From Sphingomonas sp. AP4-R1 (GTDB taxonomy: Bacteria > Pseudomonadota > Alphaproteobacteria > Sphingomonadales > Sphingomonadaceae): 64,000 nt of DNA. The notes under the pieces are model-generated. The model saw only the letters and a list, made by a program, of their open reading frames with translations. It had not been told where the DNA came from and ran no database searches. The stretch is from the NCBI RefSeq assembly GCF_013113735.1, contig NZ_CP053346.1:1378001-1442000 (forward strand), written 5' to 3'. Positions 1-18,391 of the stretch are shown here, piece after piece. Position numbers and translations under genes: made by a program. How positions within the stretch are numbered: the stretch's first letter is position 1; each line of letters begins with the position of its first letter.

Positions 1-62
1 ATGACGGATCGTGGAGCGAATGGGGCGCGCTGCCCGAGACGCCTAAGGAGAGCGTCGCGTGA
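1..62 (+). CDS. sseA: C-terminal end of a probable 3-mercaptopyruvate sulfurtransferase (partial)
   Basis: Only the last 19 codons lie in the window, read in the frame beginning at base 3 and stopping at 60-62. They contain DGSWSEWGALPE, which resembles the conserved C-terminal DGSWxEWG motif of SseA-type rhodanese-fold sulfurtransferases. Its stop codon overlaps the GTG start of the cystathionine beta-lyase gene (GTGA), so the two are probably cotranscribed and translationally coupled, which makes sense for two sulfur amino acid enzymes. The identification rests on a very short stretch; the longer open frame beginning at base 1 is a shadow. Confidence 0.6.
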   Translation, partial: DGSWSEWGALPETPKESVA

Positions 63-1240
63 GCGGAGAAGGCGACCGGCCGGCGACGAAGCTGGCCAAT
101 GCCGGGCGGCGCAAGGAATGGACGCGGGGCATCGTCAATCCGCCGGTGTGGCGCGCCTCGACCATCCTGTTCGACGATGTCGCGCATCTGCGGGCGTCCG
201 CGCGCAATCCCGATGCCGGGCTCTATTATGGGCGGCGGGGCACGCCGACCCAGTGGGCGCTGGCCGAGGCGCTGACCGAACTGGAGCCGGGGGCGGCGGG
301 CACGGTGCTGCACTCGTCCGGCGCGCAGGCGGTGGCGACCTGCCTGCTGGCCTTGCTGGGGCCGGGCGACGACCTGCTGATGGTCGATTCGGCCTATGAG
401 CCGACCCGCGCCGTCTGTGGCGGCATCCTGAAGAAGATCGGCGTGACGACGCGCTTCTACGATCCGCAACTGGGCGCGGACGAGGTGGCGGCCTTGTTCA
501 CCGACAGGACCAAGGCGGTGTTCCTCGAAAGCCCCGGCAGCCTGACCTTCGAGGTGCAGGACGTGCCCGGCATCGCGGCGAAGGCGCGGGAGGCGGGGAT
601 CGCCTCGCTGATCGACAATACCTGGGCGACCTCGCTCTTCCTGCCCGCGATCGCGCGCGGCGTGGATATCGCGATCACCGCCTGCACCAAATATGTCGGC
701 GGCCATTCGGACCTGATGCTGGGCGCCACCACGGCGCGCGCGGGCTTTTTCGAGAAGATCCGCAAGATGAGCCAGAGCCTGGGCCAGATCGTGGGGCCGG
801 ACGACGCCTCGCTCGCGCTGCGCGGGCTGCGCACGATGGAGCTTCGCCTGCGGGCGCATGAGGCGGGCGCGCTGAAGGTGGCGCGCTGGCTGGAGGCGCA
901 GCCGCAGGTGGGCGTCGTGCTGCACCCCGCGCTGGACTCCTGCCCCGGCCATGATCTGTGGCGGCGGGATTTTCTCGGCTCGTCCGGGCTGTTCAGCTTC
1001 TCGCTGCTGGATACGGACGAGACGGGACGGGCGCGCTTCATCGACGGGCTGCGCCACTTCGGCATCGGCTATTCGTGGGGCGGCTATGAGAGCCTCGCGC
1101 TCCCGATCGATCCCGCGCCGATCCGCACCGCCCGGCCCTGGGCGGGCAAAGGCGCGTTCGTGCGCCTGCACATCGGGCTCGAAGATGCGGACGACCTGAT
1201 CGAGGATCTGGCGGCGGGGTTCGCGCGGCTGGAAAATTGA
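59..1240 (+). CDS. metC: Cystathionine beta-lyase
   Basis: A 393-residue, fold type I PLP enzyme of the Cys/Met metabolism family. It cleaves cystathionine to homocysteine, pyruvate and ammonia in the cytoplasm. The expected features are visible: a YYGRRGTPT segment near residues 56-64, D187 in the SLIDNTW motif that contacts the PLP ring nitrogen, and the Schiff-base lysine K211 in ACTKYVGGHSD. The GTG start overlaps the stop of the upstream sulfurtransferase, which fixes the start well. Length is normal for the family. A methionine gamma-lyase or other trans-sulfuration family member cannot be excluded from sequence alone, but the NTWAT context fits MetC. Confidence 0.9.
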   Translation: MSGEGDRPATKLANAGRRKEWTRGIVNPPVWRASTILFDDVAHLRASARNPDAGLYYGRRGTPTQWALAEALTELEPGAAGTVLHSSGAQAVATCLLALLGPGDDLLMVDSAYEPTRAVCGGILKKIGVTTRFYDPQLGADEVAALFTDRTKAVFLESPGSLTFEVQDVPGIAAKAREAGIASLIDNTWATSLFLPAIARGVDIAITACTKYVGGHSDLMLGATTARAGFFEKIRKMSQSLGQIVGPDDASLALRGLRTMELRLRAHEAGALKVARWLEAQPQVGVVLHPALDSCPGHDLWRRDFLGSSGLFSFSLLDTDETGRARFIDGLRHFGIGYSWGGYESLALPIDPAPIRTARPWAGKGAFVRLHIGLEDADDLIEDLAAGFARLEN

Positions 1241-1457
1241 CGGTTTCCGGCGCCGATCCCACATTTCCAGACTGTTGCTGAATCGCAACGGATTGCTAAA
1301 CTAATGAGGCGCAGGATCCCTGCTCTTATTGTGCTTAGCAACATATTACGCCAAGCCTTTCCCCGCCGGACATAGGTCCCCCGCTCCTTCAGGGAGGCAG
1401 AGGCGAGAGCATGGCGGCGCGCAGCGGAACATCACGCTTTCAGCGAAGGGGATATCC

Positions 1458-2222
1458 ATGCGCTCGATTCTCGTCGGTTCCACCATTTTGGCCGCTGCGC
1501 TCCTTGCTGCGCCGGTCCTTGCCCAAGACGCACCGGCCAGCGCTTTCACCGTGACTGGCGGCGCCACGCTGACCAGCGACTATCGCTTCCGTGGCCTTTC
1601 CCAGACCAACACGCATTTCGCGGTGCAGGGCACGATCGGCGTGAGCCACGAGAGCGGCTTCTATGTGGGCACCTGGGGCTCTTCGGTCGATGATTATGTC
1701 GCGGCTGGCAGCGACCAGGAAATCGACCTCTACGCCGGATACAAGAAGACGTTCGACGGGACGACCGTGGACGGCGGCCTGCTCTATTATTTCTATCCCG
1801 GCAACGCGAAGGGCACGAACACCGACTTCTTCGAGCCCTATCTGAACGTGTCGCACACGTTCGGCCCGATCAGCGCCAAGGCCGGCATGAATTACGCCTG
1901 GAAGCAGAAGGGCCTGTCCTATGGCCCGAACGCCAAGGAGGACAATCTCTACACCTATGGCGAGCTTTCGGGCGCGATCCCCGGCGTGCCGCTGACCTTC
2001 ACCGGCCATCTGGGCGAGACGTGGGGCCGCAGCTACCTTTCGGGCGGCCTGAAGAATTACACCGACTGGAGCCTGACGGCGGCTTATGTGTGGAAGAACC
2101 TCACGCTGTCCGTCGCCTATGTCGATACGGACGTGAAGAAGGGCGAGATCACGTCGGGCTCGCCGGTGTTCCGCAATATCGGCCGGGCGGGCGTGGTCGG
2201 CGCGATCGGCATCGCTTTCTGA
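1458..2222 (+). CDS. TorF family putative porin
   Basis: A 254-residue outer membrane protein. The first 22 residues form a signal peptide (hydrophobic core LAAALLAAPVLA followed by QDAP). The mature protein begins with TLTSDYRFRGLSQT, the hallmark of the TIGR02001 family of beta-barrel proteins found in many proteobacteria. The C-terminus ends in a hydrophobic strand with terminal Phe (GAIGIAF), the usual signal for barrel assembly. I chose the ATG at 1458, preceded by GAAGGGGAT, because it starts the signal peptide directly; the longer open frame from 1329 adds a non-coding-looking extension. Transport substrate is unknown. Confidence 0.87.
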   Translation: MRSILVGSTILAAALLAAPVLAQDAPASAFTVTGGATLTSDYRFRGLSQTNTHFAVQGTIGVSHESGFYVGTWGSSVDDYVAAGSDQEIDLYAGYKKTFDGTTVDGGLLYYFYPGNAKGTNTDFFEPYLNVSHTFGPISAKAGMNYAWKQKGLSYGPNAKEDNLYTYGELSGAIPGVPLTFTGHLGETWGRSYLSGGLKNYTDWSLTAAYVWKNLTLSVAYVDTDVKKGEITSGSPVFRNIGRAGVVGAIGIAF

Positions 2223-2621: not shown

Positions 2622-3179
2622 ATGGAAGATGGGAAGCGGAGCGCGACGGCGCGGCCGGTCGCCGCGGCGCGCATGGTGCGGGCGGGAAAAAGCGAGGCGG
2701 CGGGCGTGACCCCCAAGGGGCGGATCAGGGTGCTGGGGCCCGCTCTGCCGGTGCGCTGGACCGCCCGGCGCGAGGCGATCTTTCTGGAGACGCTGAGCGA
2801 GACGGTCAATGTGCGCGAGGCGGCGCGCGTTTCCGGCCTGTCTCCGGCCAATGTCTATAAGAGGCGGGCGGCCTCCGATGCGTTTCGCGCGGCGTGGGCG
2901 GCCGCCTTGCGCGAAGGCTATGTGCGGCTGGAGACGATGCTGCTGGAGCGCGCGCTGAACGGCGTGCGATCCGACGTGTGGCATGGCGGCAAATGCGTAG
3001 GCAGCCGCCACGAATTTTCGGATGCGCTGGCGCTGGCGTTGCTGCGGCAGCACCGGGCGGGCGTGATGGGGGCGGGCGCGACGGGCGTGCCGATCCTTCC
3101 GCCGACCGAAGCGGAGACGGGGGAGGCGCTGGCGGCGCGGCTGGCGGACATGAACCGACGGCTGGGCGGCGCCGGATGA
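2622..3179 (+). CDS. GTA-type small terminase-like HTH protein
   Basis: A 185-residue protein with a basic N-terminus and a helix-turn-helix-like segment at about residues 61-82 (TVNVREAARVSGLSPANVYK). This matches the small-terminase-like protein encoded just before the large terminase in sphingomonad and rhodobacterial GTA clusters. Its role would be DNA recognition or packaging initiation. The stop overlaps the ATG of the large terminase (ATGA), so the two are translationally coupled. It looks intact, in contrast to the downstream structural genes. Family assignment relies on context plus the HTH. Confidence 0.75.
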   Translation: MEDGKRSATARPVAAARMVRAGKSEAAGVTPKGRIRVLGPALPVRWTARREAIFLETLSETVNVREAARVSGLSPANVYKRRAASDAFRAAWAAALREGYVRLETMLLERALNGVRSDVWHGGKCVGSRHEFSDALALALLRQHRAGVMGAGATGVPILPPTEAETGEALAARLADMNRRLGGAG

Positions 3180-4555
3180 GCGGGGGCGCCGGGGGCGCCT
3201 GGGCGGCGGCGCAGGCGCAGGTGGATCGTCTGGGCGGCGCGATCGATCCAGCGGTGACGCTGCCGGCGGGCGCTTCGGCGTTCGAGCGGATCGCGGCGAT
3301 CGGCGCCGCGGATCGGGCAAGGCTGATCGGATCGCTGGGGCTCCGGATCGGGCGGTGGGACTATGTGGCGCGCGCCGCGCAATGGCCGCCCGAGGGCGAC
3401 TGGCGGACGTGGCTGATCCTGGCCGGGCGCGGCTTCGGCAAGACGCGCGCGGGCGCCGAATGGGTGAAGATGCAGGCCGAGACGCATCCGGGCGCGCGCA
3501 TCGCTCTGGTGGGGGCCTCGCTGCACGAGGCGCGCGCCGTGATGGTGGAGGGCGAGAGCGGGCTGATCGCGATCATGCGCGGCGCCGTGAAATATGAGGC
3601 GTCGCTGCGGCGGCTGAGCTGGGGCAACGGCACGCAGGCCTATCTCTATTCGGCGGGCGAGCCGGACAGTCTGCGCGGGCCGCAGCATCATTTCGCCTGG
3701 TGCGACGAGATCGGCAAATGGCCGCGCGGGGAGGAGGCGTGGGACACTCTGGCGATGGGGCTGCGGCTGGGCGGCGATCCGCGCACCGTGGTGACGACGA
3801 CGCCGCGCGCCGTGCCTCTGGTGCGGAGGCTGGGCGGGCTGGCGGGCGTGACGATCACGCGCGGGCGCACGCGGGACAATCGCGCGCATCTGGCACCGTC
3901 CTTTCTGGAGATGATGAACGACCAGCATGGCGGCACGCGTTTCGGCCGGCAGGAGCTGGATGGCGAACTGATCGAGGAGATCGAGGGCGCGCTGTGGAGC
4001 CGGGCCGCGATCGACGCCTGCCGGGTGCGCGCGGCGCCCGATCTGGTCCGGATCGTGATCGGGGTGGATCCGCCGGCCGGGACGGGCGCGTCGAGCGATG
4101 CGTGCGGGATCGTGGTGGCGGGGCTGTGCGCGGAGGGGCGCGCTTATGTGCTGGCGGATGCGAGCGTGCAGGGCGCCTCGCCCGAAGGCTGGGCGGCGGC
4201 GGTGGCGCGCGCGGCCGAACAGTGGCGTGCGGATCGCGTGATCGCGGAGGCCAATAATGGCGGGGCGATGGTGGAAAGTGTGCTGCGCGCGGCGGACGAG
4301 ACTTTGCCGGTGCTGCGCGTGCATGCCGCGCACGGCAAGGTGGCGCGGGCCGAGCCGGTGCAGGCTTTATACGCGCGGGGGCGGGTGTTTCACGCGGGCG
4401 CCTTCGCTGCGCTGGAGGATGAGATGTGCGGGCTGCTGCTGGGCGGCGGCTATGAGGGGCCGGGCCGCTCGCCGGACCGCGCGGATGCTCTGGTGTGGGC
4501 GATCACGGAGCTGATGCTGGGGAAGAAGGCGCGGCCGGGGGTGCGGGGGTTTTAG
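3176..4555 (+). CDS. GTA/phage terminase large subunit (DNA packaging ATPase-nuclease)
   Basis: A 459-residue terminase with an ATPase domain carrying a Walker A motif GRGFGKT (residues 84-90) and a Walker B-like FAWCDE (173-178). It is followed by an RNase H-fold nuclease region with VIGVDPPAG, AEANNGG and the acidic motif PDRADALVWA near the C-terminus. The enzyme would translocate DNA into capsids. The ATG overlaps the preceding stop. Length and motif order are normal and no frameshift is visible, so the protein could still be made, although the capsid and most tail genes it would serve are missing here. It resembles gene 2 of the RcGTA-type cluster. Confidence 0.92.
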   Translation: MSGGAGGAWAAAQAQVDRLGGAIDPAVTLPAGASAFERIAAIGAADRARLIGSLGLRIGRWDYVARAAQWPPEGDWRTWLILAGRGFGKTRAGAEWVKMQAETHPGARIALVGASLHEARAVMVEGESGLIAIMRGAVKYEASLRRLSWGNGTQAYLYSAGEPDSLRGPQHHFAWCDEIGKWPRGEEAWDTLAMGLRLGGDPRTVVTTTPRAVPLVRRLGGLAGVTITRGRTRDNRAHLAPSFLEMMNDQHGGTRFGRQELDGELIEEIEGALWSRAAIDACRVRAAPDLVRIVIGVDPPAGTGASSDACGIVVAGLCAEGRAYVLADASVQGASPEGWAAAVARAAEQWRADRVIAEANNGGAMVESVLRAADETLPVLRVHAAHGKVARAEPVQALYARGRVFHAGAFAALEDEMCGLLLGGGYEGPGRSPDRADALVWAITELMLGKKARPGVRGF

Positions 4556-5089
4556 TGGGGGTGTGACGCCGAGCGAAACGGCTGCTTTCGTCGTTCAATG
4601 GACGACATCGGGCTCGGAGGGCGGCGGAGCTTTCTTCGTAATGGAGATAAACCGATCCACTATCACTTCGTGAGCGCTGTCATTGTCGCGACGATGATGG
4701 GTTTCTGCGGAAGCGTGAAATGGGGTCGCGCCATTTCTCATCTGGCGGGATGATCGCTTCACTCATGCCCATCCTGCCGGCGAACGCGAACGTCAGTTTT
4801 GATCACGCGGAGGCGCGGAGAGAAGGAAGGGCGCGGAAGAGCGCGGGTTCCTCGGGCCGCTCCAGCCCTTTTGTCGTAGGCCGTTCGACAGCTGACCATA
4901 GGTCGCGGTTGTCGGCCTCCCCTCCCTGGAAGGGAGGGGATTGAGGGGTGGGTGACTATCGGCGGATGACGTAGCCGCGAGCGGGGCGACCCACCCCCAG
5001 CCCCTCCCTTCCAGAGAGGGGAGCGACAGAGCCACATCCTCGCCCGAGATATGAATCAACCGCGCCCGGCGCGGAATCAGGAGATTATC
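4556..5089. other. Intergenic gap inside the GTA remnant
   Basis: About 530 bp between the terminase and portal genes, where intact GTA clusters normally have little spacer. No gene is recognisable. The only evident structure is a long inverted repeat at 4917-5023, listed separately. An AGGAG ribosome-binding site at 5079-5083 belongs to the portal fragment. Confidence 0.6.
4917..5023. repeat. Large imperfect inverted repeat (sphingomonad-type intergenic palindrome)
   Basis: The left arm at 4917-4954 and right arm at 4989-5023 are near-perfect reverse complements; each also contains an internal palindrome of the type CCTCCCTGGAAGGGAGG. The transcript could fold into a long stem or a cruciform. 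Related shorter palindromes occur at 16693-16717 and 26103-26124, suggesting a dispersed family. Confidence 0.8.
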
Positions 5090-5386
5090 ATGCGACTTTT
5101 CGGGAAGCGCGCGGAGGCGTCCGCGCGGCCGGCTTTGGTGCGGGCGCCGCAGGGGATTTTGGGCGGGGGCCTCGTGGCGGGGGCCTGGCCGCGATCCTAT
5201 GAGGCGCAGGTGGCCGAGGCCTATCTGGGCAATGCGATCGCGCAGCGCGCGGTGCGGATCGTGGCGGAGGGCGCGGCGGGCGTGCCGGTCTATGCCGCGA
5301 CCGGCCCGGAGCGGGGCGCGGGATTGATCGCGCCCGTGCTGGTGGAGACGATCGCGGCGCAGTTGCTGTTGCACGGCGGCGGCTGA
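5090..5386 (+). pseudogene. Truncated GTA portal protein (N-terminal fragment)
   Basis: A 98-residue open frame starting with MRLFGKR, preceded by AGGAG at 5079-5083. Residues about 35-98 (RSYEAQVAEAYLGNAIAQRA, then VRIVAEGAAGVPVY and VETIAAQLLLHG) match the N-terminal region of HK97/GTA-type portal proteins, which are normally near 400 residues. The frame stops right after LLLHGGG, where a normal portal continues with an NAYV-like strand. The stop overlaps the ATG of the next frame (TGATG). I infer that a deletion removed the rest of the portal and the following structural genes. An upstream in-frame ATG at 5051 exists but lacks a good ribosome-binding site. Confidence 0.8.
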
Positions 5387-5826
5387 TGCCGATCGACCTG
5401 CCGGGCGCGGCGCTCGGCGGTCCGATCGCGGTGAGCGCGCTGGGGCCGGGCGAGACGGCCTCGCCGGCCACGCGGGAGGGGATCGTGATCGGTCGCGGTC
5501 TGCGGCCGCCGGGCCCGGTGGCGCTCGATGCGCGCCGGATGGGGGACGGCACGATCCGGATCGGCTGGATCCGCCGCAGCCGGAGCGGGTGGGCCTGGCT
5601 TGATGGCGCGGAGGTCCCGCTGGACGAGGATCGGGAGTTTTATCGCCTGACGCTGGCGGTCGGCGAAACCGATTGGATCATCGAGCGGAGCGCGGCGGGC
5701 TTCGACTATCCGCCCGGCGAACAGCCGCCCGGCCTGCTGGCGGGCACGCAGCCCCTGACCGTCTCGGTCGTGCAACTCGGACGGTTCGGGGCTTCCCAGC
5801 CGACCAGCCAGACTTTTTCCCTGTGA
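5386..5826 (+). CDS. C-terminal remnant of the GTA terminal tail/host-specificity protein (gp15-like)
   Basis: A 146-residue frame with IGRGLRPPGPVALDARR, IRIGWIRRSRSG and EVPLDEDREFYRL. This pattern is typical of the extreme C-terminus of the large TIM-barrel-containing tail tip protein that closes GTA clusters (RcGTA gp15 type, normally over 1,000 residues). No N-terminal part is present. It begins at an ATG overlapping the portal fragment stop, in a different frame, so the deletion junction lies near 5376-5390. It may still be translated by coupling, but it is best regarded as a gene fragment. Identification is from remembered family pattern. Confidence 0.7.
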   Translation: MPIDLPGAALGGPIAVSALGPGETASPATREGIVIGRGLRPPGPVALDARRMGDGTIRIGWIRRSRSGWAWLDGAEVPLDEDREFYRLTLAVGETDWIIERSAAGFDYPPGEQPPGLLAGTQPLTVSVVQLGRFGASQPTSQTFSL

Positions 5827-5836
5827 GGACCGAAGC

Positions 5837-6337
5837 ATGAGCGAGACCACGCCGCGCCTGTCCCTGCCACTGCTTCAGGCGGGACAGGCGCAGAAAGAAG
5901 CTCTCCACAACGAAGCGCTGATAGTGATCGACGGAATTCTTGCCGGAATGGTCGAATCCGTGGGCGAGGATCATCCGCCCGCGATGCCGGCGCCGGGGCA
6001 GGCCTGGATCGTGGGACCGGCGCCCACTGGCGACTGGGCCGGGCAGGCGGACGCCGTCGCGATCTGGACGGCCGGCGGCTGGCGGTTTGCACCCGCGAAG
6101 GAAGGCATGGCCTTCCGCCTCAAGGGCAGCGGGGTCCGGATCGAGCGCGGTTCCGCGATCTGGGGAGACGGTGCGGCCGTGGCCACCGTGCTGAAAATCG
6201 GCGGAGTGCAGGTGGTGGGGCCGCGGCTTTCCGGCATCAGTGCGCCGGCGGGCGGAAGCGTCGTTGATACCGAAGCGCGCGCGGCTTTGGGGGTGATCCT
6301 TGTTGCATTAAGGTCACACGGTCTGATCAGTTCCTAA
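5837..6337 (+). CDS. DUF2793 domain-containing protein (GTA-associated)
   Basis: A 166-residue protein beginning MSETTPRLSLPLLQAGQAQK, the conserved opening of DUF2793 proteins, which commonly follow the tail tip gene at the end of GTA or prophage clusters in alphaproteobacteria. The WRFAPAKEGM segment is also typical. Ten bases separate it from the tail fragment, with a purine-rich GAGGACCGAAGC before the ATG. It appears full length, so the right boundary of the deletion lies upstream of it. Its function is probably tied to tail fibres or cell-surface contact, but this is not established. Confidence 0.8.
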   Translation: MSETTPRLSLPLLQAGQAQKEALHNEALIVIDGILAGMVESVGEDHPPAMPAPGQAWIVGPAPTGDWAGQADAVAIWTAGGWRFAPAKEGMAFRLKGSGVRIERGSAIWGDGAAVATVLKIGGVQVVGPRLSGISAPAGGSVVDTEARAALGVILVALRSHGLISS

Positions 6338-6531
6338 AAAATCTGGCCAGTGATGAAACCGACTGTCATGATCCGGGTTTAGCCGCTTGTTCGCCTGTCA
6401 GAACGATTGTGCACGTGCGCAATGGGAGACATTTCGGCAACAGTCCACGTTCTTGCGCCTTGCGTGAAAACATGGTGATGAGTAGGAACCGCGATGCTCC
6501 CCACGAGCACCGTGCAGAAAAGGGGTTTGAG

Positions 6532-7647
6532 ATGCGCAGAATTGCCATGATGGCTGTTTTGGCCTCTACGGCGCTCGCAGCGCCGGCGATGGCCAAAGAC
6601 AAGGCGTGGTACGTTGGTATCGAAGCCGGCGGTATGATCGTCGAAGATACCAAGATCAACATTGGCGCGGTTGCGCCTGCGGCGACCGCCAATCACAAGA
6701 CCGGTTTCGACGTCGATGGCGTCGTCGGCTATGATCTGGGCATGGTCCGCCTCGAAGGCGAAGTCGGCTACAAGCGTGCCGAGACCGCCGGTCATGACAC
6801 GACGACCCGTATCGGCGGCCTGCCTGCCGGCCGCTATTTCGGCTATGCCAGCGGTTCGACGAATGTCCTGAGCTTCATGGGCAACGCCCTGCTGAACTTC
6901 GGCGACGACAATTCGGTCAACGGTTATGTCGGCGCCGGTGCCGGTATCGCCCGCGTGAAGTATGACTCGTATCGCCTGTACGGCGGCATCCCGTATGCCG
7001 ACGGCAGCGACAGCCGCTTCGCGTGGCAGGTGCTGGCCGGCGTGCTGTATCCGATCACCGACAAGATCGACATCGGCGCCAAGTATCGCTTCTTCAACGT
7101 CTATGGCGTGAGCGTCGCGAGCAACACCTTCAATGCCCTCGCCGCTGGCGAGACGAAGGCAAAGTTCCGTTCGCACAGCCTGCTGGCGAGCCTGATCTAC
7201 AACTTCGGCGAACCGGCTGCTCCGCCGCCGCCGCCGCCTCCCCCGCCGCCGCCGCCGCCTCCGCCGCCGCCGCCTCCCCCGCCGCCGCCTCCGCCGGCGA
7301 CCCCGGGTCCGTTCATCGTGTTCTTCGACTGGGATAAGTCGGCGATCACGCCGGAGGCTTCGTCGATCCTCGACAACGCCGCTCAGGCTTATGCGACCAC
7401 GGGCCAGGCTTCGGTCATGCTCGCCGGTCACACCGACAAGTCGGGTTCGGACAGCTACAACGTTGGCCTGTCGCAGCGTCGCGCTGACTCGGTGAAGGCT
7501 TACCTGACGTCGAAGGGCGTGCCGGAGACGGCGCTCTCGACCGAAGCGTTCGGTGAGAGCCGTCCGCTGGTCGACACGGCCGATGGTGTACGCGAGCCGC
7601 AGAACCGGCGCGTGGAGATCACCTTCGGTCCGGGTTCGGGAATGTAA
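6532..7647 (+). CDS. OmpA family outer membrane protein with long polyproline linker
   Basis: A 371-residue protein. Residues 1-21 are a signal peptide ending at AMA-KDKAW. Roughly residues 22-225 are an eight-stranded barrel like OmpA (VGIEAGGMIVEDTKINIG opening). Residues 231-255 are 25 consecutive prolines. Residues about 260-371 form the OmpA/MotB peptidoglycan-binding domain (FFDWDKSAITPEA; GHTDKSGSDSYNVGLSQRRA; EPQNRRVEI). It would link the outer membrane to the peptidoglycan. The ATG at 6532 opens the signal peptide and lies after AAAAGGGG; the longer frame from 6409 is not convincing. A clear terminator follows. Not part of the GTA unit. Confidence 0.92.
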   Translation: MRRIAMMAVLASTALAAPAMAKDKAWYVGIEAGGMIVEDTKINIGAVAPAATANHKTGFDVDGVVGYDLGMVRLEGEVGYKRAETAGHDTTTRIGGLPAGRYFGYASGSTNVLSFMGNALLNFGDDNSVNGYVGAGAGIARVKYDSYRLYGGIPYADGSDSRFAWQVLAGVLYPITDKIDIGAKYRFFNVYGVSVASNTFNALAAGETKAKFRSHSLLASLIYNFGEPAAPPPPPPPPPPPPPPPPPPPPPPPPPATPGPFIVFFDWDKSAITPEASSILDNAAQAYATTGQASVMLAGHTDKSGSDSYNVGLSQRRADSVKAYLTSKGVPETALSTEAFGESRPLVDTADGVREPQNRRVEITFGPGSGM

Positions 7648-10623: not shown

Positions 10624-12024
10624 ATGAGCATCGAGGCAGGACTGGACGCGATGGGCCGGGCGGCGGAGGCGGCCATCGCCTATCGTCGCGCGATCGCCAC
10701 GGCGGAAACGACGCCGACGGCGAGCTATGCCGAGATGCTGGCGGCGTTCGCGGCGCCGGTGCCGGAGCGGGGCGCCGAGCCTGCGGTGATCCTCGACGAA
10801 CTGGTGACGAGGGCCACGCCCGGCATCCGGGCCTCCACCGCGCCGCGCTTCTACGGCTGGGTGATCGGCAATTCGCATCCGACCGGCGTGGCGGCGGACT
10901 GGCTGACCTCGGCGTGGGGGCAGAATGGCGGAAACATTCTCGCGGCCCCTGCGGCCTCCGCGATCGAGGCGGTGGCGGCGGGATGGTTGCTGGATCTGCT
11001 GGGGCTGCCGGCGGAGGCGTCGGTCGGTTTCGTCACGGGGGCGACGATCGCGAATTTCGTGTGCTTGGCCGCCGCGCGGAGCGAGATGCTGCGCCGCGTC
11101 GGTTGGGATGTGGAGGCGGACGGATTGTTCGGGGCGCCGCCGCTGCGCGTGTTGATCGGGGCCGATGCCCATGCGACCGTCTTTTCCGGACTGAAGTTTC
11201 TCGGGCTGGGTGCGCAGCGCGTGTCCACCATTGCGACCGACGAGGCGGGGCGCATGCTGCCCGCCGCGCTGGAGCAGGCGCTGGCGGAGGAAGGCGGCCC
11301 GGCGATCGTCATCGCCCAATCGGGGCAGATCAATACGGGCGCGAGCGATCCCTTTGCCGAGATCGTGCCGCTGTGTCGCGCGGCGGGCGCATGGCTGCAT
11401 GTGGACGGCGCCTTCGGCCTGTGGGCGCATGCGAGCCCGGCGCTGCGCCCTCTGACGGCGGGCGTGGAGGGGGCGGATAGCTGGGCGACCGACGGCCATA
11501 AGTGGCTGCAGACGCCCTATGATTGCGGCTTCGCGATCGTGCGCGATCCCGTCGCGCATCAGCGGGCGATGGCCTTCTCCGCCAGCTATCTGCCACCTGC
11601 CGCCGACAGCGAGCGGGAGCCCTCCGCGTTCGTTCCCGAGCTTTCGCGGCGCGCGCGCGGCTTTTCCACCTGGGCGATGATCCGGCAGATGGGGCGCAGC
11701 GGCATTGCCGAGATGGTGGAGCGTTGCTGCGCGATCGCCGCGCGGATCGGGGAGCGGCTGGCGAGCGAGCCGGGCATAACAGTGGTGGTGCCGGTCGAGT
11801 TGAATCAGCTGATCCTGCGCTTTGGCGACGACGATGCCGCCACGCTCGCGACGATCGCGCAGGTTCAGAAGGATGCGGTGCTGTTCGCCGGCGCCTCCAG
11901 CTGGCGCGGGCAATGGGTGATGCGGATCTCGGTGAGTTCGGCCGCGACGACGCTGGAGGATGCCGAGATCACGGCGACGGCCATCGCCGCCGCGTGGCGC
12001 ACGGTCAGCGCGACGCTTTCCTGA
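10624..12024 (+). CDS. PLP-dependent decarboxylase/aminotransferase-like enzyme (group II decarboxylase family)
   Basis: A 466-residue fold type I PLP enzyme of the pyridoxal-dependent decarboxylase group. H183 (DAHATV) would stack on PLP, D261 lies in HVDGAFG, and K293 in DGHKWLQTP is the Schiff-base lysine. Related enzymes act on aromatic L-amino acids, glutamate or aspartate, and many in alphaproteobacteria are annotated only as aspartate aminotransferase family; the substrate cannot be told here. The ATG follows AAAAGAGGG. The gene sits antisense between ruvB and ruvA and its 3' end overlaps that of ruvA by 20 bp, so it looks like a late insertion into the ruvCAB locus. Confidence 0.85.
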
Positions 12025-12607
12025 GCGCGAGGCGCACGAGCGCGTCGAGGCTGGCGCCGTCGCCCAGTTCCTCGACCGCGGCGGCTACGGCGCGGGACGC
12101 TTCGGCCGGGCGGAAGCCGAGATTGGACAGGGCGGAGACCGCGTCGGCCTCGGTGTTGCCGGCCGGCGTGGGCGCGGAAGACGTGGCCGAACCGAGGGGT
12201 ATCGCCGCGCCCGCTTTGTCCTTCAGCTCCATCACGATCCGCTGGGCGAGTTTGGGGCCGACTCCGTTCGCGCGTGCGACCATCGCCTTGTCGCCGGCAG
12301 CGATCGCACGCGACAATTCGGCGGGATCGAGCACGGACAGGATGGCCAGCGCCACGCGGCCGCCCACGCCCTGCACCGAGGTCAGCAGGCGGAACCAGTC
12401 GCGCTCGCCGGCCGAACCGAAGCCGAACAGCGTGATCGCATCCTCGCGCACCTGCATTTCGGTGAAGAGGATCACGTGGCCGCCCGCCTCGGGCAGCGCG
12501 GACAATGTCCTGCTCGACGCCTGCACCAGATAGCCGACCCCGCCGACATCGATGACGGCGGCATCCGCGGTGGTTTCGGCGAGGGCTCCGGCGAGACGTG
12601 CGATCAT
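12005..12607 (-). CDS. ruvA: Holliday junction DNA helicase subunit RuvA
   Basis: A 200-residue protein with the OB-fold N-terminus ([18 protein letters not shown]), two helix-hairpin-helix motifs ([18 protein letters not shown] and [20 protein letters not shown]) and the C-terminal RuvB-binding domain ([16 protein letters not shown]). It tetramerises on Holliday junctions and loads RuvB. The start at 12607 removes an arginine- and histidine-rich extension. It follows ruvC by 89 bp on the same strand. Its 3' end overlaps the convergent PLP-enzyme gene by 20 bp. Confidence 0.95.
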
Positions 12608-16692: not shown

Positions 16693-16717
16693 CTCCCCTC
16701 CCTGGCAGGGAGGGGAG
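16693..16717. repeat. Palindrome between convergent genes, possible bidirectional terminator
   Basis: The stem CTCCCCTCCCTG/CAGGGAGGGGAG lies 7 bp after the serine dehydratase stop and 9 bp before the alanine dehydrogenase stop. It has no clear T run, so termination is a guess. It resembles the arms of the inverted repeat at 4917-5023. Confidence 0.65.
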
Positions 16718-16725
16718 AAGAAGCC

Positions 16726-17820
16726 TCAGTTCAGCGGCAGGTCCAGCGCCTCGGCCACGGCCGCGTGGCGGATCTTGCCGCCCGAGACGTTGAGGCCGTT
16801 GGCCAGATGCGGGTCGGCCGCCATCGCCGCATCCGCGCCGAGGTTCGCGAGCTTCAGCGCGAACGGCAGGGTCGCATTGTTGAGCGCGAAGGCCGAGGTG
16901 CGCGCGACCGCGCCCGGCATGTTCGCCACGCAATAATGGGTGATGCCGTCCACTTCGAACACGGGATCGTCATGCGTTGTGGCGTGGCTCGTCTCGAAGC
17001 AGCCGCCCTGATCGATCGCGATATCGACCAGCACGGAGCCGCGCTTCATCGTCTTCAGCATCTCGCGCGTGACGAGCTTGGGGGCGGCCGCGCCCGGAAT
17101 CAGGACCGCGCCGATCACGAGATGCGCCTTGGCCACGGCCGAGGCGATCGCCGCCTTGGAGGCATAGGCCGTCTTGATCTGGCTGGAGAAGAACATGTCC
17201 AGTTCGGCCAGGCGATCATTGTTGATGTCGTAGATCGTTACGTCGGCGCGCATGCCGACCGCCATCTGCGCGGCATTCACGCCGGCGATGCCGCCGCCGA
17301 GGATCGCGACTCGCGCCGGGGCCACGCCGGGCACGCCGCCCAGCAGCACGCCGCGTCCGCCCTGCTCCTTCTCCAGATAATGCGCGCCGACCTGCACGGA
17401 CATGCGCCCGGCCACTTCGGACATCGGCTTCAAGAGCGGCAGACCGCCGCGCGGGCTCGTCACCGTCTCATAGGCGATGCAGGTCGCACCCGACTTCATC
17501 AGGCCTTCGGCCTGCGGCTTGTCGGCGGCCAGATGGAGATAGGTGAAGAGCAGGTGGTGCGGGCGAAGGCGGGCGATCTCCACCGGCTGCGGCTCCTTCA
17601 CCTTCACGATCATCTCGGCCTGCGCGAACACCTCGTCGGCGGTGGCCAGGATGCGCGCGCCGGCCTCGACATAGTCGCGATCCTCGAAATCGATGCCGGC
17701 GCCGGCATTCGTCTCGACCACCACCTCATGGCCCGCCGCGACCAGCTCCGCCACGGACGGCGGCGTCAGGCCGACGCGATATTCGTGATTCTTGATTTCC
17801 TTGGGTACGCCGATTCTCAT
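16726..17820 (-). CDS. ald: Alanine dehydrogenase
   Basis: A 364-residue NAD-dependent enzyme that interconverts L-alanine and pyruvate plus ammonia. Visible are MRIGVPKEIKNHEYRVGLTP at the N-terminus, K75 (VKVKEPQ), H96 (TYLHLAADK), the NAD-binding AILGGGIAGVNAAQMA loop, and the VDIAIDQGGCFE motif with the catalytic Asp near 270. It is divergent from an Lrp/AsnC regulator gene, the common arrangement for ald control. Confidence 0.95.
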   Translation of the reverse strand: MRIGVPKEIKNHEYRVGLTPPSVAELVAAGHEVVVETNAGAGIDFEDRDYVEAGARILATADEVFAQAEMIVKVKEPQPVEIARLRPHHLLFTYLHLAADKPQAEGLMKSGATCIAYETVTSPRGGLPLLKPMSEVAGRMSVQVGAHYLEKEQGGRGVLLGGVPGVAPARVAILGGGIAGVNAAQMAVGMRADVTIYDINNDRLAELDMFFSSQIKTAYASKAAIASAVAKAHLVIGAVLIPGAAAPKLVTREMLKTMKRGSVLVDIAIDQGGCFETSHATTHDDPVFEVDGITHYCVANMPGAVARTSAFALNNATLPFALKLANLGADAAMAADPHLANGLNVSGGKIRHAAVAEALDLPLN

Positions 17821-17950
17821 GGCACTCTCCTATTCCCTGGAGGAACGCTTATCCGGCGGAAGCAGGCGCGATATTCGAAAGTTCGGCGGGGCGGCGCCAT
17901 CCCGTGCAATCGGATTGCGTCATGCCCCCGCTTCGCGCAATCGCAGGCAC

Positions 17951-18391
17951 ATGGATGCGATCGATCAGAAGATATTGCGACAGCTCGCCAGCGATTCGAC
18001 CCTCACCAATGATGCGCTGGGCAATCGTGTAGGCCTGTCCGCCTCCGCCGCCCACCGCCGGGTGAAGGCGCTGGAGCAGGCCGGCGCGATCATCGGCTAC
18101 CGCGCGCGCCTGTCTCGCGCGGCGGAGGATCACCCCTCCACCGTGTTCGTGCAGGTGACGCTCACCGATCAGAAGCGCGCGACGATGGAGGCGTTCGAAC
18201 AGGCGATCGAGCGCGCCGCCGTGATCCGCGAGGCGCATCTGATGAGCGGCGAATCGGATTATCTGCTGAAGGTGCTCGTGCCGCGCAGCGACAGTTACGA
18301 GCGGATCCACCGGCAGGTGCTGGCATCGCTGCCCGGCGTGCACCGACTCGTCACGCAATTCACCATCCGTTCAATTCAGACCGACGATTAG
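17951..18391 (+). CDS. Lrp/AsnC family transcriptional regulator
   Basis: A 146-residue protein with an N-terminal winged helix ([20 protein letters not shown], recognition region [19 protein letters not shown]) and a C-terminal RAM/AsnC ligand-binding domain ([19 protein letters not shown]). The start at 17951 begins the HTH directly; the frame is open further upstream into the divergent promoter region. Its position 130 bp from the divergent ald start suggests it controls ald in response to an amino acid, probably alanine. That is inference from context. Confidence 0.9.

Follow-up and report, generated by a model that had tools for sequence, protein, structure and literature searches.

Internal collapse of a gene transfer agent cluster upstream of ompA in Sphingomonas sp. 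AP4-R1 and the fate of the same site in its relatives

The stretch of DNA considered here (the window) comprises 64,000 nucleotides of Sphingomonas sp. AP4-R1 (contig NZ_CP053346.1, positions 1,378,001 to 1,442,000). Upstream of ompA it carries the genes of the small and large terminase subunits (TerS and TerL), the beginning of a portal gene, the end of the gene of the tail protein gp15 (the megatron) and the gene of a DUF2793 protein, for which a tail-fibre role is assumed. The locus is very probably a relic of a gene transfer agent (GTA) cluster of the type known from Rhodobacter capsulatus (RcGTA), which in relatives probably makes DNA-carrying particles, lying at the usual site of such clusters and internally deleted, with its ends in early decay and serving no new purpose. 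The families and their order, from TerS, TerL and portal to gp15 and DUF2793, as well as the GTA-type TerL, are shared with RcGTA and with the RcGTA-like clusters of Sphingomonadales (PMC6821227, PMC7947584, PMC9662315). In contrast to those clusters, the window lacks about 11 kb between the portal and gp15 and has no capsid gene, and no particle is expected; gp15 of the sphingomonads compared here has about 730 residues, against about 1300 in the NCBIfam model. Judged by homology and gene order, the remaining genes match the complete clusters of relatives, as those of a decayed RcGTA-like cluster would. Prophage remnants would lie at scattered insertion sites, whereas a single fixed site is found across the genus and the family census, and the window cluster shares this site, next to ompA, with 59 full or near-full loci.

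The original prediction, made from the sequence alone, held that the TerS, TerL and DUF2793 genes are intact, and all three are indeed open frames with PHROG or Pfam matches. TerS is 36-58% identical to its counterparts in relatives; TerL reaches 75-76% with Sphingomonas natans and 79% with the Sphingomonas metagenome-assembled genome (MAG) DI605. The window TerL is free of stops, has retained its Walker A and VDPPAG motifs and carries, in the nuclease domain, VDPPAGTGASSDACG with a proline and a cysteine ten residues apart. Identified from motif and spacing, with no alignment to the RcGTA record, these would be Pro282 and Cys292 (RcGTA numbering), the two GTA marker residues of TerL given in section 3.4 of PMC7947584.

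Also predicted were a portal N-terminus of about 98 residues ending in LLLHGGG and a TGATG overlap opening the last 146 or so residues of a gp15-like protein, and both are present. The portal stub aligns with residues 10-107 of the 386-residue portal of the reference locus L003 (Sphingomonas sp. PR090111-T3T-6A) at 56% identity, and the megatron stub aligns with residues 578-727 of the 731-residue megatron of that locus. The latter stub also matches positions 1183-1287 of 1299 in the NCBIfam model GTA_megatron NF048004 (2.5e-12, 45.4 bits); the whole-protein cut-off of this model is 800, so that a fragment necessarily scores below it. Alignment to complete clusters refutes the reading of the two fragments as normal full-length genes.

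At the junction the portal codons run to LLLHG and the megatron homology begins near RL-PIDLP, out of frame, with portal codon ~96 next to megatron codon ~580. Past this point the portal frame is closed at once by a stop, and the TGATG overlap at 5384-5388 opens the 146-residue megatron frame. The ATG of the megatron fragment corresponds to CTG in S. natans (L001), so the start codon may be accidental and the overlap need not be a functional start. A microhomology of about 3 nt is possible at the crossover, and the join was probably made by illegitimate recombination using homology of that length. The span between the joined points has a median of 11.4 kb in 52 intact loci (range 8.5-15.6), and an internal deletion of about 11 kb has brought the portal and the megatron together. 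The proposal that one deletion fused the portal to the tail-tip gene holds as far as an internal deletion relative to complete clusters is concerned. Because the join is out of frame, however, portal and gp15 do not form a single fusion protein, and the end product looks the same after one deletion as after several nested ones.

In the intact locus L142 the same span holds, by Pfam, the rest of the portal, the prohead protease S78, the HK97-type capsid, a tail-tube or chaperone-type protein of the GTA-gp10 family, a non-contractile tail sheath/DUF2460 protein, the baseplate hub protein and the start of gp15. In L003 there is also a match to a head-tail connector. The structural genes expected between the two stubs, namely those of protease, capsid, connector, tail and baseplate, are therefore found there in complete clusters, and the deletion would have removed them from the window. 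L003 itself seems to lack most of g12/g13 (17733-17985), a region of ~3 kb in most other loci, apparently through an internal deletion of its own; for this reason nine further reference loci were added for the census.

Four queries were run against the whole 5.27-Mb genome (the portal family PF04860, a full-length portal, the GTA capsid and a gp12-type protein); the other missing genes were not searched for individually, and their loss is presumed from the complete clusters. The full-length portal of G005, a MAG of the genus, gave one match, residues 1-95 at G000:C1:1383090-1383383, which is window 5090-5383. No match in the genome was obtained with PF04860, with the GTA capsid, a query that does find the gene in G005, G105 and G047, or with the gp12-type protein, a query without its own positive control. 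Thus, the genome has no portal past the stub, no capsid and no gp12-type protein, although a functional RcGTA-type agent needs head, portal and tail genes, and the cell is presumably unable to build particles. A split GTA whose missing genes operate from elsewhere in the genome, a case that the original prediction had allowed for, is hardly credible: a regulator gene of the DUF6456 type remains at G000:C1:1750476, but for portal and capsid the idea is contradicted by these searches. An assembly artefact can practically be dismissed, as the junction lies inside a 5,252,057-nt contig and occurs in three other database sequences.

These three sequences came from a search with the stub protein that was restricted to short proteins and gave 20 matches, the window's own included. 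In P0002 (74%), P0003 (76%) and P0005 (80% over half of the stub), LLLHG is followed by megatron sequence in the identical shifted frame. The collapse extends beyond this strain and, since three other proteins show the window's junction, it was either inherited or recurrent. P0005 is encoded on a 599,147-nt contig of DI605, to which the full-length TerL P0022 and the metC P0142 are taken to belong. A single inherited deletion is the simpler reading. The four junction stubs form one clade in the portal tree (support 0.965), which was made from short proteins only and may miss intact portals of close relatives, and the TerL identity between the window and DI605 (79%) exceeds that in the comparisons with S. 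natans (76 and 74%). By metC, however, DI605 is closer to S. natans, which lacks the junction (88.5%), than to the window (85.9%), so that TerL and metC give conflicting answers as to which of DI605 and S. natans is nearer the window, which weakens the case for inheritance. That close relatives made the same exact deletion several times is possible but rather doubtful; it would agree with the metC identities and with the exact recurrence of another junction, that of TerL with DUF2793, described below. In L046 (2928-3436), P0010 and P0011 the portal LLLHG is likewise the left breakpoint, joined out of frame to gp14, which itself has an LHG motif. This site may therefore be a recurrent breakpoint, a circumstance that also speaks for repeated deletion.

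Seven genomes of the genus were compared at the same site. One cluster is apparently intact, four are represented by differing remnants and two sites are empty, while the side with metC and the porin-like gene is the same in all seven. In G005 the cluster is intact as far as two contigs reach, from TerS to the capsid; its metC has one in-frame TGA in the matched stretch (G005:C152:4003-5166). Besides that of the window, the remnants consist of TerL 1-413 joined to the megatron from 187 in S. natans (G002), of TerS followed by DUF2793 in G003, and of the megatron end with DUF2793 in G006. G001 and G004 have zero GTA genes between the porin and ompA. The genome of S. natans contains a capsid of 40% identity away from the GTA site (G002:C6:568239-569174; L097, L111), which probably belongs to a prophage.

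An unrooted tree of metC, porin and OmpA (OmpA missing for G005) groups G000, the window genome, with G002, G001 and G004 with G003, and G005 with G006, each with a bootstrap of 100. The rpoB tree supports the genus and the first of these groups, not the remaining ones. The collapse in G006 is independent, because the intact G005 is its sister. In the metC tree with an outgroup, G003, G001 and G004 fall outside the rest; from the rooting of this single gene at least three losses in the genus would follow. G000 and G002 each retain something that is lost in the other, so that a shared first deletion would be as compatible with the remnants as separate ones.

DUF6456 is understood here as the domain of GafA/GafZ. 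A gene with this domain (PF20057) lies at G000:C1:1750476-1750865 and is also present in G002 and G006; it was not found in G001, G003 and G004, nor in the fragmented G005. When 14 control genomes were queried, Caulobacter was the sole match. The gene of the window genome is possibly a GafA-type GTA activator retained despite the dead cluster, and its distribution is consistent with the cluster being lost first and the regulator later. The GTA of Caulobacter crescentus (CcGTA) has the activators GafY and GafZ, described in PMC11150451, the text of which does not use the name DUF6456. The window genome likewise still has a DUF6456 gene but, unlike that system, no complete cluster for it to control.

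The original prediction left it open whether the terminase was kept by chance or for another use. Chance is the most likely reason for the survival of TerL, with early decay rather than a new function; this preference comes from conserved sites, a substitution in DI605 and the census, as the ratio of nonsynonymous to synonymous substitution rates (dN/dS) did not show it by itself. Between the window and S. natans the pairwise dN/dS is 0.107 for TerL, 0.122 for TerS, 0.080 for the megatron end and 0.166 for DUF2793, compared with 0.048-0.064 for OmpA, metC and porin. In 30 pairs of other loci TerL has values of 0.006-0.112; a locus without capsid (L033, L066, L079) takes part in three of these pairs, and synonymous divergence is saturated in two. 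In 22 one-branch tests of the megatron stub, DUF2793, the portal stub and TerS, the window branch looked relaxed for DUF2793 only (0.78; likelihood ratio test statistic (LRT) 6.7, uncorrected). The S. natans megatron branch was at its upper bound in these tests, and several other branches were at the length bound and unusable.

At conserved sites the TerL proteins appear to be eroding. Between the window and DI605, the half of the sites with the higher conservation accounts for 26.6% of the 64 differences; the share is 20% between the window and S. natans and 21% between DI605 and S. natans. The 316 reference pairs of 72-84% identity, which include TerL proteins from short-contig loci of unknown cluster state, have a mean of 9% and a 5-95% range of 4-15%. 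For six portal-stub pairs, 14-35% of the differences are at conserved sites against a mean of 15.9%. In addition, the TerL of DI605 has VNPPAG in place of VDPPAG (D303N), that is, a change of an aspartate regarded here as catalytic.

Several results weigh against this reading of the terminase as a decaying leftover. On the window branch the TerL dN/dS (0.118) equals the background (0.118) and is not raised, and neutrality is rejected (LRT 26.4). The portal stub looks constrained on that branch as well (0.111). Such low values mean either that most change predates the collapse or that selection persists; since the portal stub, presumably useless, is equally constrained, the branch test would mostly measure the time before the collapse. 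The excess at conserved TerL sites is also seen in P0023-P0025, whose cluster state is unknown (13-16%), and the reference set lies outside the window clade, where clade-specific freedom could inflate the figures. Of 138 conserved sites, 6 are altered in the window TerL, a number that matches the maximum among 74 reference TerLs (mean 1.9), and three of the six departures are common to close relatives.

A terminase pair kept on purpose, with TerS and TerL taking a DNA-handling role in the cell after the loss of the capsid and remaining under selection, is nevertheless improbable. The open frames, the unrelaxed TerL branch, the full-length TerL in the same-junction DI605 and the proline and cysteine matching the GTA markers (PMC7947584, section 3.4) are what it would lead one to expect. 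It does not agree with D303N and the excess change at conserved sites, with the truncation of TerL in S. natans and its absence from G003 and G006 at the same site, or with the few complete TerL genes in the broken loci of the census. TerS, TerL, the two stubs and DUF2793 would accordingly count as leftovers in early decay. They would survive chiefly because the flanking host genes are retained and a deletion that stays between them spares the ends, as the census and the conserved-site erosion suggest.

For the census, 119 genomes of the family were queried with the window OmpA; 109 matched, 10 had no match, and seven with partial matches were left out. DNA upstream of ompA was taken from 99 genomes (100 loci, as G014 has two) and combined with six loci of the genus, giving 106 loci in 105 genomes. 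A script classed 59 of these as full or near-full, 26 as broken and 19 as empty, with two more having a capsid but the 5' end missing from the DNA at hand. Under the different rules of a previous script the counts were 55 full, five probable, 27 broken and 19 empty loci. Eight of the 19 empty loci have an OmpA identity of <=48% and may represent paralogues, and upstream DNA is scant for the broken loci of G132 and G037 and the empty ones of G036 and G004. In the OmpA tree many broken loci adjoin full ones (G131/G054, G010/G108, G007/G105, G096/G073, G029/G114), and the collapse therefore occurred many times.

Retention was assessed in 18 broken loci without capsid and with more than 6 kb of upstream DNA, excluding four loci with the recurrent junction. 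A complete TerL remains in 5 of them, TerS in 9 and DUF2793 in 17, while a single random deletion removing the capsid would keep TerL in 40-51%, TerS in 68-86% and DUF2793 in 93% of cases. A preferential retention of the cluster ends, considered as an explanation, is thus not seen in these 18 loci beyond the one-deletion null. Some loci have peculiarities of their own. L066 (13539-14703) and L033 (13552-14623) are otherwise long clusters without a capsid match, the former also without matches from protease to gp8. In the collapsed L014 (also L146), where TerL is directly followed by the megatron end, DUF2793 is split over two frames (11808-12244).

In the census only four loci, those of G007, G091, G096 and G084, have TerL running directly into DUF2793. 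All four join TerL (~155) at LRGP..SHA to DUF2793 at QxQKE with a spacing of 14 nt, or 15 nt in G084. When 298 genomes of the family were scanned for this pattern, 30 sites matched with <=1 mismatch, and 15 of these read as the chimera; the other 15 were set aside as chance, since their spacer is not chimera-like, and two of them that were opened contained no GTA gene. Eleven of the 15 chimera matches were opened, and TerS, a truncated TerL and DUF2793 were found in each, with ompA within reach in 6. G091 had been seen in the census, and G095, G304 and G274 are known from the matched sequence only. Counting G084, the junction occurs in 16 genomes from 12 genera (13 viewed at the level of the locus), all in one nucleotide register except for one carrier that is off by a base. 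The TerL and DUF2793 frames are open in 11/11 opened loci; in G084 a stop interrupts the DUF2793 frame, which is shifted.

Several explanations of this junction were tried and rejected. Relocation of the cluster is not supported, as no GTA-like capsid was found in any of the 16 carrier genomes; G096 has a capsid of 40% identity, probably of a phage. Descent as one clade is not supported by trees of the TerL N-terminus, in which the ends of carriers are interleaved with full relatives, a full member of the same genus adjoining in g2 (G007, G170 / G105) and in g42 (G232 / G127); g53 is another genus with both states of the locus. Homology in register was likewise not seen at the two sites: in 35 full loci the identity is 0.24 at the register of the join and 0.17-0.34 at other offsets. 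No clear foreign tract was found near the junction in 12 carriers compared with full loci (25 for the flank in TerL, 14 for that in DUF2793), and at most distances around it carriers are only slightly more alike than full loci. The dN/dS of the TerL N-terminus is 0.112 in 13 carriers and 0.079 in 21 chosen full loci (LRT 6.5), which is a slight relaxation.

It is tentatively proposed that GTA death in Sphingomonadaceae is non-random, with null alleles of exact junction (TerL155-DUF2793 and portal95-megatron580) reappearing beside intact relatives, either through a short junction fragment, passed on by recombination, that serves as template for the deletion in further hosts, or through a site-specific cut at fixed places. 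The GTA of Caulobacter packages 5-15 kb according to PMC9632790. A collapsed locus of ~2 kb would fit such a particle, while a cluster of ~13 kb would fit only the largest ones, if any. Collapsed alleles like that of the window would be able to fix either under selection against GTA production, which is costly and lytic (the published cheater idea), or after a plain loss of selection.

The features of the window are collected in Table 1. The spacer between TerL and the portal stub contains the repeat-like inverted repeat CCCCTCCCTGGAAGGGAGGGG (window 4917-5023). A near copy, a related 21-mer, lies at 16695-16715, and five matches occur on both strands where none is expected.

Table 1. Features of the collapsed cluster and its borders in the window, and loci with the recurrent TerL-DUF2793 junction.
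Feature	Position	Strand	Remarks
metC and porin-like gene, upstream edge of the site in the genus	59..2222	+	order constant in 7/7 genus genomes
TerS, small terminase, GTA g1	2622..3179	+	open 185-aa frame; PHROG 4044, 1.2e-19
TerL, large terminase, GTA g2	3176..4555	+	open 459-aa frame; Pfam Terminase_6N and 6C
Spacer between TerL and portal stub, ~495 nt	4556..5050	.	inverted repeat, arms 4917-4946 and 4994-5023
Portal 5' stub, first ~95 residues	5051..5386	+	111 aa, or 98 aa from ATG at 5090; C-terminus LLLHGGG-stop
Deletion junction, portal/megatron	5362..5386	.	crossover about 5371-5380; portal and megatron homologies overlap
Megatron (gp15) 3' stub, last ~146 residues	5386..5826	+	NF048004; PHROG 4271 tail protein; 62% to S. 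natans
DUF2793 protein, last cluster gene	5837..6337	+	open 166-aa frame; Pfam PF10983, 3.2e-22; 67% to S. natans
ompA, host gene, downstream edge of the site	6529..7647	+	Pfam OmpA; same neighbour in genus and census
TerL-DUF2793 junction loci			census L158, L179, L202, L215 (15-nt spacing in L215); L235, L240, L241, L243, L244, L247, L249-L253

RcGTA-like clusters were reported in 110 of 169 Sphingomonadales (65%) in PMC6821227, if its table columns are read correctly. Pseudogenised and lost GTAs, possibly cheaters, are described for several alphaproteobacterial lineages in PMC10883770, and the window is one of these. The losses presented here differ from those in being internal deletions at one syntenic site, with mapped breakpoints and one junction recurring exactly. 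No description of exact recurrent deletion junctions in GTA clusters was found in the literature searched, as judged by titles and abstracts. The window itself is thus a clear dead GTA of an already known sort; what deserves attention is the broader picture and especially the junction that recurs exactly. Random decay is not expected to strike the same base pair in a dozen genera, and this recurrence is the unexpected part. As to why bacteria keep costly, lytic GTAs and how these are lost, the locus fixed by ompA exists in one sampled family in 59 full or near-full, 26 broken and 19 empty states. Losses of the GTA can thereby be counted and their breakpoints mapped, so that neutral loss, selected loss and spread between lineages can be tested against one another.

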